Origin: Lentilactobacillus farraginis DSM 18382 = JCM 14108
Lineage (GTDB): Bacteria; Bacillota; Bacilli; Lactobacillales; Lactobacillaceae
Assembly (NCBI RefSeq): GCF_000583655.1
Contig: NZ_BAKI01000028.1
Location: 1 to 34,500 of the forward strand
Length of the DNA stretch: 34,500 bases
Direction of reading: 5' to 3'
A program made the position numbers and the translations under genes. The notes beneath the pieces are model-generated. The model saw only the letters and a program-made list of their open reading frames with translations, ran no database searches and was not told the origin of the DNA. Of this stretch, positions 16,887-25,661 are shown in pieces. Each line of letters starts with the position of its first letter. Within the stretch, counting starts at the first letter, position 1.

Positions 16887-19054
16887 CTAATCTTTGGGCG
16901 CAATCATCGATAATTGAATTCGATGCCGATCAGCATCAACCGAATCAATCCAAACGGTAACAATATCGCCTACTGAAACCAGCTTACCAGGATCCCTCAC
17001 AAACTTCTTACGCATTTTGGAGATATGAACCAGGCCATCCTGCTTGACGCCAATGTCCACAAAAGCACCAAAATCAACAACGTTGCGAACAGTTCCCTGG
17101 AGTTGCATCCCCGGTTTAAGATCCGCCATCGTCAGCACTTCTTTTTTCAGCAGCGGTGCCGGCATATCATCCCGCAAGTCACGGCCGGGTGTCTCAACGC
17201 CTTTAATAATGTCCGCCAGCGTTGCTGCTCCCACGCCAATTGTTTTGGCTGCTGCCGAAACATCCAGCCCGACTAATTTTTTAGTGACAACCGGTTTTCC
17301 CAAATCGGCTGTTGACAACTGATAACGGGTAAGCAGGGCCGTTGCCGCCGGATAACTTTCCGGATGGATATCCGTGTTATCCAATGGATTATCCCCGTTA
17401 ATAATCCGCAGAAAACCGACAGCCTGTTCAAACGCCTTAGGTCCCAACCGGGGCACCTTCTTTAATTCATTGCGATCAATAAATTGACCGGCTTCATTTC
17501 GAAACTTAACAATGTTATCAGCCGTTGATTTAGTTAAGCCTGAAATATGCACCAGCAATTCGGGACTGGCCGTATTTAGATTTACACCAACCCGATTAAC
17601 CGCGGTTTCAACAACCTGATCCAATTTTTCAGCCAACTGCTTTTGTGGAACGTCATGTTGGTACTGCCCTACGCCGATTGACTGCGGATCAATTTTAACC
17701 AGTTCTGCCAAAGGATCTTGGATCCGACGGGCAATACTGACAGCCGAGCGTTGCTCAACGCTGAAATCGGGAAATTCTTCGCGGGCAACTTTACTTGCTG
17801 AATAAACCGACGCGCCGGCCTCATTCACAATTACGTAATAAACCGGCGACTGCAATTTTTTGATAGCTTTGGCAACAAATTGTTCTGATTCCCGACTGGC
17901 AGTCCCGTTACCGATTGCGATCATTTCAACGTGATTTTTATTAATAAAATCAATAAATAACCCTTCGGCAGCTTTTCGTTTGGCTTCGCTGGCCGGTTTA
18001 TGCGGATAGATAACCGTTTTATCCAGATATTTACCATTGGCATCTACAACCGCTAATTTACAGCCCGTCCGATAAGCCGGATCAAATCCCATTACAATCC
18101 GCCCCTTCAACGGTGCCTGCATCAACAGGTTATATAGATTTTTGCCAAAAACATCGATAGCGTGGACAGCCGCTTTCTCACTGAGTGTCTTTCGGATCTC
18201 ACGCTCAATTGCGGGACCGATAAATCGCTGGTAACCGTCCAAAGCCGCCGTTCGAACAATGTCGGCCGCCAAACCGGTATGTTTACCAACCATGTTGGAT
18301 GTCAGATACCAGTCTATCGGCGCTTCATTCACCGTAATTTTAACGTTTAAAATTCCTTCCTTTTCACCCCGGTTAACTGCCAATATTCGATATGACGGCA
18401 CTTCTCTGACCGACTGGGAAAAATCATAATATTGCTGGTAAGTCGCGGCTTCGTCTTTTTGCTTGGCGCCCCGCTTCACTTTGGTCGTTAAGACGCCATA
18501 ACGATTGGTATGCTGCCGAATCCACTTACGGAAGTCGGCACTGTCGCCAACCTCTTCGGCGATAATTTCATGAATGCCGTCAATAACCGCTTGCCGATCG
18601 GTAAGTTCCTTTTGTGGATCCACCGATTGCTGAATCTTTTCTTCTAATTGTGGGTCAAACTTAATGGCAGCTTTGGCCAGGGGAAGCAAGCCCTTCTCCT
18701 TGGCGATGGTTGCTTGGTCCTTCTTTTTTGTTTGTACGGTAAGTAAAGGTCCTCAACCTGCTGCAGCACATTTGCGGCTTCAATCTGCCCCTTAAGTTTA
18801 GGTGTCAACGCATGCTGTTCGGCAATCATCTTAAGGACTTCATCTTTTCGCTTTTCCAACGTTTGAATCCGATGCGCAGCAGCCTGGATATCCCTGATTT
18901 CAACTTCATCCAGATTCGATGTCCGTTCTTTTCGATACCTGGCAATGAAAGGGACCGTGTCCCCCTCATCAAGCAATTTTAACGTTTCAGCAATTTGCTT
19001 AACCCGAATTTTCGGTAAATCGTGCTGTATTTTTTCAGCAAGCGTTGTCTCCAT
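16887..19054 (-). CDS. tex: Tex-family RNA-binding transcriptional accessory protein (frameshifted by one missing base)
   Basis: Tex proteins bind nucleic acid and are linked to transcription and RNA turnover. In order: the N-terminal helical HTH region, a YqgF/RuvX-like domain (IVMGFDPAYRTGCKLAVVD), helix-hairpin-helix repeats (VGVNLNTASPELL, then KVPRLGPKAFEQAVGFLRI), and a C-terminal S1 domain (GTVRNVVDFGAFVDIGVKQDGLVHIS). The frame breaks at about 18713; restoring a G in AAG-GCA rejoins KQKRRTKATIAKEKGLLPLAKAA. The full length is then about 722 residues, normal for the family. GAGGTGG lies eight bases before the ATG at 19054, which is preferred over the GTG at 19066. Confidence 0.92.
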
Positions 19055-19087
19055 GAAATAATCCACCTCGTTATTAATCTAGTCTTT

Positions 19088-19184: not shown

Positions 19185-19616
19185 TTACAGTAGTCCCATA
19201 ATTCTCGTTGTTACGTCCGAAACTTTGGCAATGTGGGCTTCCTGATCCTTTTCAGCTTGATTGAATTGATCAGTGTTAATACTTCCAGCCTCGGCATCAA
19301 GACTGTCAGTCATCGCCTGGCAGGCTGCCGCATAATCTGCGTAGGCTCGTACCAGCAGTTTGTGTTTGCCCAGTACTTTAACCGGAACGGGTGCCTGTTC
19401 AAGCTTGGTCACATTATCCTTGTATTTGTCGGTTCCGGCTTGGAAATGAGCCTTAATGCGAGCAAGCTGATCCGTGCCAAGATCAGCAACCGTCCCATCA
19501 TCAATTGTCTTTCTGAGAATTTCATAATCGGCATTTAAATCCTCTCCGTTTGTCTGGGTTGCATCAATGATATCCGAAACAACTTTGGCATACCTTCTTA
19601 AATCTTGTGGTTTCAA
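19185..19616 (-). CDS. Small helical protein of unknown function in the P-type ATPase operon
   Basis: I do not recognise a named family. The protein is about 143 residues if started at the TTG at 19616, which has GGGGG eight bases upstream; an upstream in-frame TTG at 19631 would give 148 but has no ribosome binding site. It is soluble, without signal peptide or membrane segment, and is expected to be almost fully alpha-helical, with heptad-like stretches such as LARIKAHFQAGTDKYKDNVTKLEQA. No metal-binding Cys or His cluster is visible. It starts 24 bases after the ATPase stop, so it shares the manganese riboswitch and may support metal or envelope stress functions (inference). Confidence 0.7.
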   Translation of the reverse strand: MKPQDLRRYAKVVSDIIDATQTNGEDLNADYEILRKTIDDGTVADLGTDQLARIKAHFQAGTDKYKDNVTKLEQAPVPVKVLGKHKLLVRAYADYAAACQAMTDSLDAEAGSINTDQFNQAEKDQEAHIAKVSDVTTRIMGLL

Positions 19617-19639
19617 AAAGAAAGCCCCCAATTAAAATT

Positions 19640-22306
19640 TTATTGTTGATTGAAAAAGTGACGCTGTCCATATTTTACTACTTCTGAGATGACAACGATC
19701 ATAAATCCGCCAATAATAACAATCAGCCACTGTGACAGATATAATTCTGTTACGTGGAACATACTGTTAAAGCCCGGCACAACAATTGTTAGGATTAGTA
19801 ATAATGCAGATCCCAAAAGTGCCCAATTAAAGAACTTGTTTTTGAAAAGCCCAACTCGAAAGACCGATTGATGAATGGTCTTGGAATTAAACGCATGAAA
19901 CAGCTGAATCAATCCCAACGTCGCGTAAGCCATCGTCAACGCGTCGGCGTGAATCAGTGCATCTGAAGAATGAACCGGATTCAAGATGGCATAAGCGTAA
20001 ACCGCCAGCGTAATCGCGCCCTCAAAGAATCCTTGATAAAGGATATTGGACATAATCCCGCCGGATAAAAAGTTGGACGTCCGGCCACGCGGCTTGCGCT
20101 TCATAATCCCGGGCTCGGCAGGTTCAACTCCCAATGCAATGGCTGGAAAGGTATCGGTTACCAGATTGATCCATAGGATTTGAACCGGCGCCAGAATTTC
20201 CCAGCCCATCATCGTCATAACAAAGAGTGTCAAAACTTCTCCCAAATTAGCAGATAAGAGATACTGCAGTGATTTTTGAATATTGGAGAAAACTTTTCGC
20301 CCAGCTTTAACCGCCGTGACAATTGTCGCAAAATTATCGTCAGCCAAAACCATATCACTGGCTTCTTTGGAAACCTCGGTACCGGTAATTCCCATACCGA
20401 CACCAATGTCTGCAGCCTTTAAAGCCGGCGCATCATTGACCCCGTCGCCGGTCATTGCTACGACCTTGCCCTTTTTCTGCCAGGCATTCACAATTCGCAC
20501 CTTATGTTCAGGGGCAACCCGGGCATATACTGAGATATCCGTGACCCGCTTTTCAAACTGACTGTCCGACAAATCATCCAGTTGTGCGCCGCTGATAACC
20601 TTGTCAGCGGCCTTATCGGTATGGTCGAGAATTCCCAACCGTTTGGCGATGGCCTGAGCTGTATCTTGGTGATCACCGGTAATCATAATTGATTTGATAC
20701 CGGCCGTCTTGGCCTCGGCTACAGCTTGGGCAACCTCGGGCCGTTCCGGATCAATCATCCCAATCAGACCGGCAAAAATCATCCCGTGTTCCTGCGCTTC
20801 GCTGGTTAACTCATCAGGAACTTTATCAACCATGCGATAGGCAAATGCCAATACGCGAAGCGCCTGGGTCGCCAATTCATGATTGGTTTCGCTGATCTTT
20901 TGTTTATCCGCTGCTGTGATCTCTCGAATCCGCTCATTATCCAGGATTTGCGTTACTCTGGCTAAAAGCTGATCAGGAGCGCCCTTCATCGTCATCATGA
21001 TCTGCTGATCGGCCATTTGATTATAAGTGGTCATGAGCTTTCGTTCGGAATCAAACGGAATTTCGGCAAGCCGCTGATGCTGATTGATAAATTCCTGAAC
21101 CGGCAGCTTTTGATTTTGGTAAAACGAAACCAGCGCCGTTTCGGTAGGATCGCCACCCAAACCGTCCGCTAAAAATTTGGTATCGTTATTCAAAACCATA
21201 ATCTGTGGCAGCTTATCAGTCAGTGATAGCTGCGTTTGGGTGGAATCGGTCAGTTGACCATCTAGATAAACCTTTTCAACCGTCATCTTATTTTGAGTCA
21301 ACGTCCCCGTTTTATCCGACGCAATAATGTCGGTGCTTCCCAATGTCTCAACGGCTTGAAGTTTTCGAATCAGAGCGCGATGACGGGCCATCTGCTGCGT
21401 CCCAATTGCCAACGTAACCGTCACGATCGCCGGTAGACCTTCCGGGATCGCCGCAACAGCCAGTGAAATAGCCGTCAGCAGCATATTAATCAGACTTTCC
21501 TGACCTCGCCACATGCCGACACCAAAGACAATCACCGCAATTACCAGAATTAAAACGGTCAAAACTTCTCCGAGTTTGTTCAGGTTTTCTTGAAGCGGGG
21601 TGGTTGCTTCTTCGGTTGTATTTAACATATGGGCAATTTTGCCGACCTCGGTATTCATCCCGGTTCCAATAACTACGCCGGTACCCCGTCCCGATGTAAC
21701 ATTACTATTCATAAAGCCAAGGTTTTTCCGGTCACCAAGCGGCAAATCATTCTCGCTGATGGTCTCGACCTGCTTATTGACGGGCACCGACTCACCGGTT
21801 AAAGCGGCCTCTTCGATCTTTAAAGTGTTGGCCTCAATTAAACGAATATCCGCCGGCACAACATCACCGGCCTCCAGCAGCACAATATCGCCCGGTACAA
21901 TTTCTTCACTTTTAACGGTTGTCTGCCGATCGTTTCGCATCACTGTCGCCATTGGCGCCGACATTTGTTTAAGGGAATCAATTGCGTTTTCAGCTTTGGA
22001 TTCCTGAAAAACGCCAAAGACCGCGTTTAAAATCACAACCGCGATAATAATCGCCGCATCGATATGTTCACCGGCAATCCCGGCAATAACGGCCGCGATG
22101 ATCAAAATAATAATCATCAAATCCTTAAACTGCGCGATAAACTTTTCAAAAAGTGTCGTTCGCCGTTTCGCCTGAAGACGGTTATAACCGAATTGTTCTC
22201 GTCGCTTCGCAACATCTTGATCAGTTAACCCGTTTGGATTAGCCTTCATTCGTTTCATAACCGCTTCAGCCGATTGCTGATAAAATAATTCTGCCTGCTG
22301 TTTCAT
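19640..22306 (-). CDS. P-type cation-transporting ATPase (Ca2+/Mn2+ type, P2A)
   Basis: An 888-residue cation pump of the SERCA/PMR1 group that should export Ca2+ or Mn2+. An N-terminal cation ATPase domain is followed by the actuator motif TGES (170-173), the M4 metal-site motif AAIPEGLPA (about 285-293) and the phosphorylation site DKTGTLTQNK with Asp331. The hinge is TGDGVNDAPALK. M5 has NLGEVL, and M6 has WINLVTD with the Asn and Asp ligands of Ca2+ site II. Yeast Pmr1's Mn-selective Gln in M6 appears to be replaced by Ile. A yybP-ykoY riboswitch in its leader argues that Mn2+ is a physiological signal and possibly a substrate. RBS GAGGAGG precedes the ATG. Confidence 0.93.
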   Translation of the reverse strand: MKQQAELFYQQSAEAVMKRMKANPNGLTDQDVAKRREQFGYNRLQAKRRTTLFEKFIAQFKDLMIIILIIAAVIAGIAGEHIDAAIIIAVVILNAVFGVFQESKAENAIDSLKQMSAPMATVMRNDRQTTVKSEEIVPGDIVLLEAGDVVPADIRLIEANTLKIEEAALTGESVPVNKQVETISENDLPLGDRKNLGFMNSNVTSGRGTGVVIGTGMNTEVGKIAHMLNTTEEATTPLQENLNKLGEVLTVLILVIAVIVFGVGMWRGQESLINMLLTAISLAVAAIPEGLPAIVTVTLAIGTQQMARHRALIRKLQAVETLGSTDIIASDKTGTLTQNKMTVEKVYLDGQLTDSTQTQLSLTDKLPQIMVLNNDTKFLADGLGGDPTETALVSFYQNQKLPVQEFINQHQRLAEIPFDSERKLMTTYNQMADQQIMMTMKGAPDQLLARVTQILDNERIREITAADKQKISETNHELATQALRVLAFAYRMVDKVPDELTSEAQEHGMIFAGLIGMIDPERPEVAQAVAEAKTAGIKSIMITGDHQDTAQAIAKRLGILDHTDKAADKVISGAQLDDLSDSQFEKRVTDISVYARVAPEHKVRIVNAWQKKGKVVAMTGDGVNDAPALKAADIGVGMGITGTEVSKEASDMVLADDNFATIVTAVKAGRKVFSNIQKSLQYLLSANLGEVLTLFVMTMMGWEILAPVQILWINLVTDTFPAIALGVEPAEPGIMKRKPRGRTSNFLSGGIMSNILYQGFFEGAITLAVYAYAILNPVHSSDALIHADALTMAYATLGLIQLFHAFNSKTIHQSVFRVGLFKNKFFNWALLGSALLLILTIVVPGFNSMFHVTELYLSQWLIVIIGGFMIVVISEVVKYGQRHFFNQQ

Positions 22307-22322
22307 TAATTTCCTCCTCTTT

Positions 22323-22450
22323 AAAGAAAAAGAGACTTATAAACTCTTGTGAAAAGAATTCATAAGTCTCACCATTTAAGAAATATCCCGGAAATTTAAA
22401 ATTTCACGTTGACGAGATATCCACAATTGCAATTGCTGGTTACTCCCTTT
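22323..22450 (-). ncRNA. yybP-ykoY (Mn2+-sensing) riboswitch with terminator
   Basis: On the minus strand, in order: AAAGGGAGTAACC (the conserved GGGAGTA at 22447-22441), a hairpin region, CTCGTCAACGTG (the conserved CGTCA loop, around 22415-22407), a second hairpin (AAATTT pairs), and GGTGAGACTTATG (22373-22361, the conserved GAGAC loop). The last element is also the 5' side of a terminator stem, GAGACTTAT paired with ATAAGTCTC (22340-22332), followed by TTTTTCTTT. Metal binding should hold the GAGAC loop in the aptamer, block the terminator and turn on the ATPase. In this family the loops bind Mn2+, and targets include P-type ATPases. Confidence 0.82.
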
Positions 22451-22461
22451 TATTTAAGAAT

Positions 22462-22490
22462 ATTATACCTAATTATTCATGCCTTGTCAC
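22462..22490 (-). promoter_or_regulatory. Promoter of the riboswitch-ATPase transcript
   Basis: On the minus strand GTGACA (22485-22490) and TATAAT (22462-22467) are separated by 17 bases. The start is expected at about 22455, just before the AAAGGGAGTA that opens the riboswitch. Confidence 0.8.
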
Positions 22491-22493
22491 TTA

Positions 22494-23329
22494 CTAGGAC
22501 TTCCAAAAAGTATCGAAAATGTTAATTGGCAGGTGTCGTTTATGTTCCGTTTTGTTATACCAGCTCTCAATCGTCTCAGCTGCTTTTTGTGAAACCGGCT
22601 TGCCCTCCAGGTAATCATCAATATCCTGATAGGTAACCCCCAATGCAACTTCATCGGGTAACGCCGGTCGATTGTCTTCCAAATCGGCAGTTGGTGTTTT
22701 TTGATACAGGTGTTTTGGTGCCTTTAATACTTCCAGGAGCTGCTTACCCTGTCGCTTATCCAACCGCCAAAGCGGCGTGATATCGGCTGCGCCGTCACCA
22801 AATTTGGTGTAAAGCCCGTAACGGCTTCCGCCGCGTGATCGGTGCCCACGACAACGCCATTTGTACTGCCCGCGATCGCATACTGGGCAATCATTCGCTG
22901 CCGGGCCTTAATGTTGCCCTTGTTGAAATCACTGACCGTTACCTGGTTGGCTTCAACAGCTTCGACAGCTGCATCGACTGCCGGTTGGATATCAACCCGA
23001 AAAGTCCGGTCCGCTTTGATATAATCAATGGCTGCCAGCGCATCGGACTCATCCGCCTGCACCCCATATGGTAATCGGACCGCGATAAATTGATAATCTT
23101 TATCACCAGTTTCTTCACGCAATTCAGAAATTGCCATCTGTGATAATTTACCAGCCAACGTTGAATCCTGACCGCCTGAAATTCCCAAAACAAGTGATTT
23201 AAAAAAATCATATTTTTTTAGATAGGCTTTTAAAAAGTCAACACTTTTACGGATTTCTGTTTTTGGGTCAATTGTCGGTTGGACCTTCAAAGATTCAATA
23301 ATCTCTTTTTGCTTCTCTCTCATGACCAT
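22494..23329 (-). CDS. nadE: NH3-dependent NAD+ synthetase (frameshifted by one missing base)
   Basis: The last step of NAD synthesis: amidation of nicotinate adenine dinucleotide with ammonia. The PP-loop ATPase motif SGGQDS is at 51-56, and [12 protein letters not shown] (162-173) is a family signature. There is no N-terminal glutaminase domain, so it is the short, ammonia-dependent type. The frame breaks near 22811-22813; one more T in the TTT run restores [24 protein letters not shown] and a 278-residue protein, the usual length. It follows pncB by 13 bases, completing a nicotinate salvage pair. NadE is normally essential, which argues that the break is an artefact. Confidence 0.93.
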
Positions 23330-24921: not shown

Positions 24922-25661
24922 ATGGAGAAGGAAACAAAAAATAAGCAGGTTTCAATTCTGGGGGTCCCATTTGAGGATACCAATCAAAAAGACTTTGAAG
25001 CATTACTAAAAAAACGGATTGACGCCCACCAAAACACGTTTGTTGTCACCGCCAATCCAGAAATTGTCATGTATGCCCGCCACAACCGCTTGTACAACCA
25101 GCTGATCCACAAAGCAGATTATATTATCGCTGACGGTATTGGGATTATTATTGGGGCAAAACTGCTAAAGCAACCGTTGGCAGAAAGAATTACCGGTTAC
25201 GACTTATTTGTCAGCCTGCTTCATTGGGGCAGCCAGACTCATAAATCGGCATACTTCGTCGGCGCGAAAACCGACGTCATCAACAAGCTGAAGCAGGTGG
25301 TTGCCAAATCCTATCCAGGACTAACCATTGCCGGCACGCATAACGGTTACTTTGGTGACGACCGCAACATCGTCAATGACATTGCCCGAACCCAGCCCGA
25401 TATGGTATTTGTCGCAACGGGCTACCCCAAGCAGGAAGAATTTATCGAGCGGAACCGAAAGGCTGCCGATGGCCTGTGATGGGGATTGGCGGTTCCTTTG
25501 ATGTTTTGACCGGTACGGTAAAACGGGCACCACAAAGCTGGCAGAAAATGCATCTGGAGTGGTTATACCGAGTAGTTAAAGAGCCCAGCCGGATTTACAG
25601 ACTGTCGGTTTTACCAAAATACCTGCTTGAAGTTCTTAAGGAAAAATGGTCCAAAAAATAA
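24922..25661 (+). CDS. WecG/TagA/CpsF-family glycosyltransferase (GT26; frameshifted by one missing base)
   Basis: GT26 enzymes such as TagA add N-acetylmannosamine to lipid-linked GlcNAc, building the linkage unit of wall teichoic acid; others make surface polysaccharides. The family core is visible: VTANPEIVMYARHN, YIIADGIGIIIGAKLL (catalytic Asp region), RITGYDLF, FVATGYPKQEEFIERN, and after the break MGIGGSFDVLTGTVKRAP and the C-terminal LEWLYRVVKEPSRIYR. One G is missing near 25476 (GGC CTG GTG ATG); restored length is about 246 residues. It is monocistronic with a downstream terminator. The LCP protein at 10603-11709 could act on the same polymer (inference). Confidence 0.9.

Follow-up and report, generated by a model that had tools for sequence, protein, structure and literature searches.

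Manganese riboswitches of the yybP-ykoY family (Rfam RF00080) have been described structurally in L. lactis and X. oryzae, where the N7 of one adenosine (A41 in L. lactis, A48 in X. oryzae) is reported to bind Mn2+ and its replacement by U to remove the docked state that Mn stabilises (PMC9190785, PMC6754395). In the L. lactis RNA, the switch helix P1.1, once stabilised by Mn2+, is reported to withhold its 3' strand from the terminator. A related leader, that of pneumococcal mgtA, was characterised in 2019 as a Mn/Ca-responsive riboswitch; its aptamer is reported to form a three-way junction that binds Ca2+ more tightly than Mn2+, with transcription activated more by Mn2+ (Martin et al., via PMC11434433, PMC7674665, PMC9495176). 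The RNA beside pneumococcal SP1551 had already been labelled yybP-ykoY in 2010, and M12, another sRNA candidate of the pneumococcus, later proved to be the Mn riboswitch; further papers drawn on are PMC11087558, PMC7838592, PMC12323649, PMC9334652, PMC9331361 and PMC2887815. Among the papers that a literature search covered, none was found to describe a Lactobacillaceae member; the regulons compiled in PMC3766115, which take in both Lactobacillaceae and yybP-ykoY, may list some.

The window, that is, the whole stretch of 34,500 nt that was analysed, carries on its minus strand, in this order, the last nadE frame (ending at 22494), a promoter-like site, a leader, a terminator, a Shine-Dalgarno sequence and the gene of a P-type ATPase. 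For comparison, 70 homologues of this pump were taken from among the best-scoring matches, the window's own locus included; they were picked by score, and the series of leader motifs lies upstream of 60 of them. A covariance model, R1, was built from alignment A2, which holds 26 of these 60 leaders and contains neither Lentilactobacillus nor Secundilactobacillus, and it finds the same 60. To our knowledge, no experiment on such a leader in Lactobacillaceae exists. The features of the locus are the following:

22490-22462, minus strand: promoter-like site, GTGACA-17 nt-TATAAT, 11 of 12 consensus matches, directly after the nadE stop codon.
22461-22356, minus strand: probable riboswitch aptamer of the yybP-ykoY family (P1.1/P1.2, P2, P3); R1 match of 67.8 bits, E 1.2e-16.
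22447-22441, minus strand: GGGAGUA, 5' strand of loop L1, invariant in 60/60 leaders; its first G closes P1.1 in the drawn structure.
22440-22437, minus strand: P1.2 5' strand ACCA, which pairs with UGGU at 22374-22371; 3 of 4 pairs changed on both sides among relatives.
22436-22423, minus strand: P2 hairpin, GCAAUUGCAAUUGU; 5 of 5 pairs changed on both sides among relatives.
22414-22410, minus strand: CGUCA of loop L3, its C-A invariant in 60/60 leaders.
22374-22371, minus strand: P1.2 3' strand UGGU, placed by the R1 match and covariation in relatives.
22370-22366, minus strand: GAGAC, 3' side of L1 and first P1.1 base, also the 5' arm of the terminator; invariant in 60/60 leaders.
22370-22327, minus strand: intrinsic terminator with a 17-bp stem (22370-22332), a loop of 5 and a U-tract (22331-22327); -20.7 kcal/mol.
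22318-22313, minus strand: Shine-Dalgarno sequence AGGAGG of the ATPase gene, read from the sequence.
22306-19640, minus strand: P-type ATPase of 888 aa (Ca2+/cation type), ATG at 22306-22304; Pfam E1-E2_ATPase, Cation_ATPase_N and Cation_ATPase_C.
19631-19185, minus strand: small uncharacterised ORF just 3' of the pump, possibly the second gene of the transcript.

This arrangement agrees with the initial annotation, which had placed GGGAGTA, CGTCA and GAGAC in this order between a promoter and a terminator within 22323-22490, coordinates that hold, and which had noticed that the terminator stem uses the GAGAC strand; the 17-bp stem does begin with GAGAC. The on-switch layout that it proposed also fits, in that the 5' arm of the terminator shares GAGAC with P1.1, and an anti-termination mechanism would give this direction of control. 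Two of its terms need qualification. The "good promoter" is indeed the sole such site on the minus strand between 22200 and 22700, but 1.2 sites are expected there in shuffled sequences, and the match is weak evidence when taken alone. The word "operon" is loose, one small ORF closely 3' of the pump being what is seen. Similar promoter motifs were observed by eye in other Lentilactobacillus leaders. The region 22323-22460 folds with a z value of -3.40, and none of 200 dinucleotide shuffles folds as well.

The small ORF (19185-19631) has no Pfam or NCBIfam match, and several relatives have, next to their pump gene, a frame that resembles it by eye. Some of the neighbouring genes are broken. The minus-strand nadE gene is interrupted by what looks like a frameshift, either an assembly error or real, which leaves its coding in overlapping ORFs of two frames, 22724-23329 and 22494-22763; tex, on the same strand, is also divided, with its Tex_N domain in 18644-19066 and the other Tex domains in 16887-18689. 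The plus-strand ORF 24922-25479, which by eye is presumably TagA-like, seems to end early, and similar coding continues in another frame. With three such breaks within some 9 kb, indel errors of this 129-contig draft are suspected.

The initial annotation had proposed a search with the Rfam yybP-ykoY model and regarded the lack of a covariance-model hit as grounds for rejecting the riboswitch. With RF00080 there is indeed nothing at the gathering score anywhere in the window and nothing at E<=10 within the 271 bases of 22290-22560; the best score of this model in the genome, 7.9 bits, lies away from the leader. With the subgroup model R1, on the other hand, the leader is matched, and this is the sole match in the window and the sole match at E<=10 in the genome. 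None of the Lactobacillaceae leaders or genomes scanned passes the RF00080 cut-off of 45, and 4 of 20 relatives' leaders scanned reach 16.9-21.1 bits, all below it; because RF00080 fails on the relatives as well, and because both models share the same RNA elsewhere, its miss in the window is attributed to a limit of the Rfam model. RF00080 alone was thus rejected as a test of membership, being insensitive for this group of leaders. Matches to bglG-cis-reg, freshwater-2, rli24, Staphylococcus-1 and several microRNA families were also discarded, all of them far under their gathering scores.

The extent of this limit becomes evident in a sample of 295 Lactobacillales genomes, searched with both models under stricter filters that lose weak matches: R1 matches at E<=0.01 in 244 genomes and in 66 of 74 genera, while RF00080 matches at E<=0.01 in 49 genomes and exceeds its cut-off in 35, all of them in one family (f8) that is absent among the R1 matches. 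At least seven places in Lactobacillales are matched by both models, with RF00080 scores of 23.7-32.0 bits, below the cut-off. At 35 vs 244 of 295 genomes, the blind spot of the Rfam manganese family is a large one.

The linkage between leader and pump is widespread. Pump matches at E<=1e-150 are present in 261 of 301 Lactobacillaceae genomes, including that of the window. The leader is absent upstream of 10 of the 70 pump homologues (L023, L026, L034, L052, L057, L058, L059, L061, L062 and L072), the first three of which belong to Secundilactobacillus. Of 44 R1 loci that were chosen, 41 could be oriented; at 38 of these, all from Lactobacillales, the gene that follows encodes the pump or a P-type paralogue, and the remaining three lie outside Lactobacillales, two before TerC-type genes and one before MntP. 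A search with a DNA pattern that ignores the downstream gene, in genomes that overlap with the other samples, gave 100 stretches, and a pump homologue is the longest ORF starting downstream in 86 of them (69/80 and 17/20). The remaining 14 comprise four truncated at the end of the locus (L131, L162, L171 and L213), one with a short ORF only (L156), seven with other genes, and two, in a Clostridia MAG (L211) and a Solobacterium MAG (L227), whose downstream ORF is unlike the pump. In genus g43, which we take to be Streptococcus, pump leaders are likewise matched by R1.

The structure of the aptamer was drawn by hand (P1.1, P1.2, P2, P3 and the top of P3) after a MAFFT alignment of 50 of the 60 leaders (A1), the RNAalifold fold of A1, which recovers P1.2, P2 and parts of P3, and A2; in A1, one P3 strand of Lentilactobacillus is misplaced by one column. 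When A2 is placed on the drawn structure, 94.1% of the cells pair, compared with 28.8-40.5% when the structure is slid by 1-3 columns, and the covariation score is 0.403, compared with at most 0.112. Sixteen of 28 pairs have changed on both sides, with covarying pairs in each helix, and against 500 shuffles four of the five measures are reached by none and the fifth, further pair types, by ten. When all 60 leaders are aligned to R1, 93.5% of the cells pair and the covariation score is 0.505, in an alignment that is itself fitted to the structure. A fourth helix is absent from the structure that fits the leaders, which consists of P1.1/P1.2, P2 and P3.

No base varies among the 60 leaders in GGGAGUA, in GAGAC or in the C-A of CGUCA. 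By our own alignment, aided by the RF00080 alignment of locus L048, the A at 22410 takes the place of the Mn2+-ligating adenosine, A41 in L. lactis and A48 in X. oryzae, and an A is found at the equivalent place in all 39 further rows that have letters there; three weak rows have none. Beyond the 60, GGGAGUA is changed in three leaders (L266, L273 and L274). The main soft spot of the riboswitch reading is the weak P1.1 of Lentilactobacillus: in the window it has 5 of 6 pairs (one of them U-G) and an A-A mismatch, and in 14 other Lentilactobacillus leaders 4 or 5 of 6. P1.1 does covary in the other genera (A2).

A link with the manganese riboswitches already recognised is found outside the order. 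In a sample of the class, 299 genomes in all, R1 has hits in 38, of which ten lie outside Lactobacillales. The genes 3' of these ten are one MntP, eight TerC-type and one Zn_peptidase_2; the MntP, the peptidase and three of the TerC-type proteins were assigned with Pfam, the other five by likeness. RF00080 coincides with R1 at six of the ten loci, over the cut-off in L262, L263 and L264 and below it in L261, L260 and L258, and has no match at E<=0.1 on the other four. R1 was learnt from Lactobacillaceae pump leaders only and reaches MntP and TerC, and thus leads to the classic genes of manganese riboswitches; with both models falling on one RNA at these loci, the leader shares a common ancestry with recognised yybP-ykoY members.

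Other downstream genes were also observed. The R1 leader L257 (41.7 bits), outside Lactobacillales, stands before the gene of a putative neutral zinc metallopeptidase (PF04298), which is not a transporter. In Erysipelotrichaceae MAGs, leaders of this type (R1 54.6-57.6 bits) lie at L135:4515-4614 and L197:3060-3159, before Na+/Pi cotransporter-PhoU proteins, and at L188:3153-3252, before a PHO4-type phosphate transporter, and none of the three has an RF00080 match at E<=0.5. In Clostridia/Clostridiales MAGs, the leader is found at L205:4490-4592, L144:2004-2099 and L196:1914-2012 before CitMHS/ArsB-like permeases, a call that comes from Pfam for L205 and from likeness for the other two. In a further Erysipelotrichaceae MAG, a leader with an R1 score of 46.4 bits (L172:6228-6325) precedes an SPFH/flotillin protein.

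Taken together, homology, a covarying structure, conserved metal-site nucleotides, an overlapping terminator and a conserved linkage to the pump are observed, and they make it very probable that the leader is a yybP-ykoY Mn2+ riboswitch, in the three-way-junction form of the streptococcal mgtA leader, which would act by Mn2+-on anti-termination before an exporting pump. The identity put forward by the initial annotation therefore gains support from the sequence, the covariation, the Mn-site nucleotides and the gene neighbourhood. Mn2+ as the ligand, the direction of the regulation and the substrate of the pump are inferred. At high cytosolic Mn2+, the ion would bind between L1 (GGGAGUA) and L3 (CGUCA) and dock the two arms; the docked arms would stabilise P1.1, whose 3' strand (GAGACUUAU...) would then be unavailable to the terminator, and RNA polymerase would read into the pump gene. 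At low Mn2+, the 3' strand of P1.1 would form the 17-bp terminator and transcription would stop. The pump would export the excess of metal, most likely Mn2+ together with Ca2+.

The terminator is common to most of the leaders. A stem that starts from GAGAC and is followed by a U-run passes a strict terminator test in 45 of the 60, that of the window included; the 15 failures are ten Secundilactobacillus leaders, L067, and L035, L036, L037 and L039, and in these last four the stem is present by eye with a shorter U-run. The Secundilactobacillus failures (L022, L024, L025 and L027-L033) comprise 10 of 10 leaders of the genus. In eight of them, P2 is complementary to the Shine-Dalgarno region at or above the level of the best 5% of 300 shuffles (mean of -9.95 kcal/mol over the ten), the exceptions being L022 (22/300 shuffles) and L031 (140/300). 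The same level is reached in 0 of 15 Lentilactobacillus leaders and 0 of 34 others; L051 has no recognisable Shine-Dalgarno sequence. The pairing of P2 and its pairing with the Shine-Dalgarno sequence would be mutually exclusive. Translational control, again as an on-switch, is predicted from this, and an anti-Shine-Dalgarno P2 may have replaced the terminator in this genus, as a translational platform within the aptamer. The ten leaders come from close relatives and amount to one or a few events.

The closest solved structures of the pump are entries of the Ca2+-transporting ATPase lmo0841, followed by SERCA and a type 2C (SPCA) pump; among NCBIfam models, the PMR1 type is best and lies below its cut-off, and the PMCA type passes its own. 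This kinship to Ca2+-ATPases fits a reading in which the fold is the same and the cellular ligand is Ca2+ (or any divalent ion), the leader serving as a calcium-overload valve for a calcium pump. The higher affinity for Ca2+ reported for the pneumococcal mgtA aptamer, which Mn2+ nevertheless activates more, points the same way, as does the position before the pump of 38 of 38 orientable Lactobacillales R1 loci (P-type paralogues included) and 86 of 100 pattern loci. However, the adenosine that matches the Mn-specific N7 ligand is invariant, and beyond Lactobacillales this RNA stands before MntP and TerC-type genes, so a calcium valve is considered unlikely, if still the most serious of the alternatives. 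Our best guess, and a reasonably probable one, is that the pump is a mixed Mn2+/Ca2+ exporter. The genome of the window (94% complete) has no MntP match and contains, over cut-off, three Nramp-family and three CDF matches, which leaves room for Mn exporters other than the pump. Loss of the orthologous pump by mutation in S. sanguinis is reported to lower the density reached with 2 mM Mn (data not shown by its authors), and the mgtA orthologue is reported, to its authors' surprise, to be up after Mn depletion (both in sources among PMC11434433, PMC7674665 and PMC9495176).

The best Rfam match of the leader is not RF00080; it is RF02617, SSRC10 (39 bits, E 4.2e-6, under the gathering score of 56), and in a search of the genome with this model the ATPase leader is the best place. 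SSRC10 also matches 18 of 20 relatives' leaders at E<=1, one of them over the gathering score, and reaches 72.7 bits in L048, 64.5 in L274 and 59.9 in L273. Rfam files RF02617 as an sRNA gene, with no clan. Read in this way, the RNA would be an independent trans-acting sRNA that ends at the terminator, and the original report offers some grounds for it: SSRC10 of S. pyogenes was detected by Northern blot, its ends were set by circular RACE, and the authors tried to drop candidates located immediately upstream of ORFs (PMC3675131). Yet the same report lists SSRC10 between SPyM3_0439 and SPyM3_0440, a "putative calcium transporter", all on one strand (PMC3675131), which is the arrangement found here. 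The leader, moreover, is kept before 60 of the 70 pump homologues, a riboswitch transcript that stops at the terminator would produce an identical band, and M12 is a precedent of an sRNA candidate that turned out to be a Mn riboswitch, all of which leave an independent sRNA with very little probability. The matches suggest instead that SSRC10 belongs with RF00080 as a riboswitch leader, and that it may be misfiled as an sRNA gene. That the segment is just the terminator of nadE with a chance consensus, the pump having another promoter, is hardly credible: nadE does lie just upstream on the same strand and promoter-like sites are equally frequent in shuffles, but the whole aptamer covaries and is conserved across genera, R1 matches it at E 1.2e-16, and the minus strand has no other promoter-like site in 22200-22700.

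With the riboswitch reading, a wider picture can be put forward, tentatively and with somewhat more doubt than confidence. A three-helix subclass of Mn riboswitches would be spread across most Lactobacillales before one Ca/Mn pump, nearly unseen by RF00080; in Secundilactobacillus the platform would have been swapped, with the terminator gone and the P2 loop and 3' strand complementary to the Shine-Dalgarno sequence as a translational on-switch; and the Erysipelotrichaceae and Clostridia copies before phosphate transporters and a CitMHS-type permease would link Mn2+ sensing to phosphate handling. What is fresh here is the breadth missed by RF00080, the probable misfiling of SSRC10 and the possible change of platform in one genus. 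There is also a regulatory reason to re-examine the "calcium-transporting ATPase" genes of Lactobacillales as exporters of Mn2+ (or Mn2+/Ca2+).

Compared with the known systems, the leader of the window shares with the yybP-ykoY riboswitches of L. lactis and X. oryzae the GGGAGUA of L1, the invariant adenosine of L3, the overlap between a P1.1 strand and the terminator, and metal-exporter genes downstream, and its P1.1/terminator overlap fits the mechanism proposed for L. lactis. The L. lactis and X. oryzae RNAs are described with four helices, P1-P4 (PMC9190785, PMC6754395), whereas three meet at the junction in the window, a difference that is not counted as defining because a three-way junction is reported for the pneumococcal RNA as well. 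The streptococcal mgtA leader precedes the same kind of pump and is reported to have the same three-way junction; in comparison, the P1.1 of the window is weak and A-rich. SSRC10 stands in Rfam as an sRNA gene, whereas the evidence from the window favours a cis-acting riboswitch leader. With regard to the pump, lmo0841 and the PMR1/SPCA-type pumps are the nearest counterparts, by structure and by the best (sub-cut-off) NCBIfam model respectively; lmo0841 (LMCA1) has an Ala where the pump of the window has the Glu of "NLGEV", a Glu that SERCA2 has as well.
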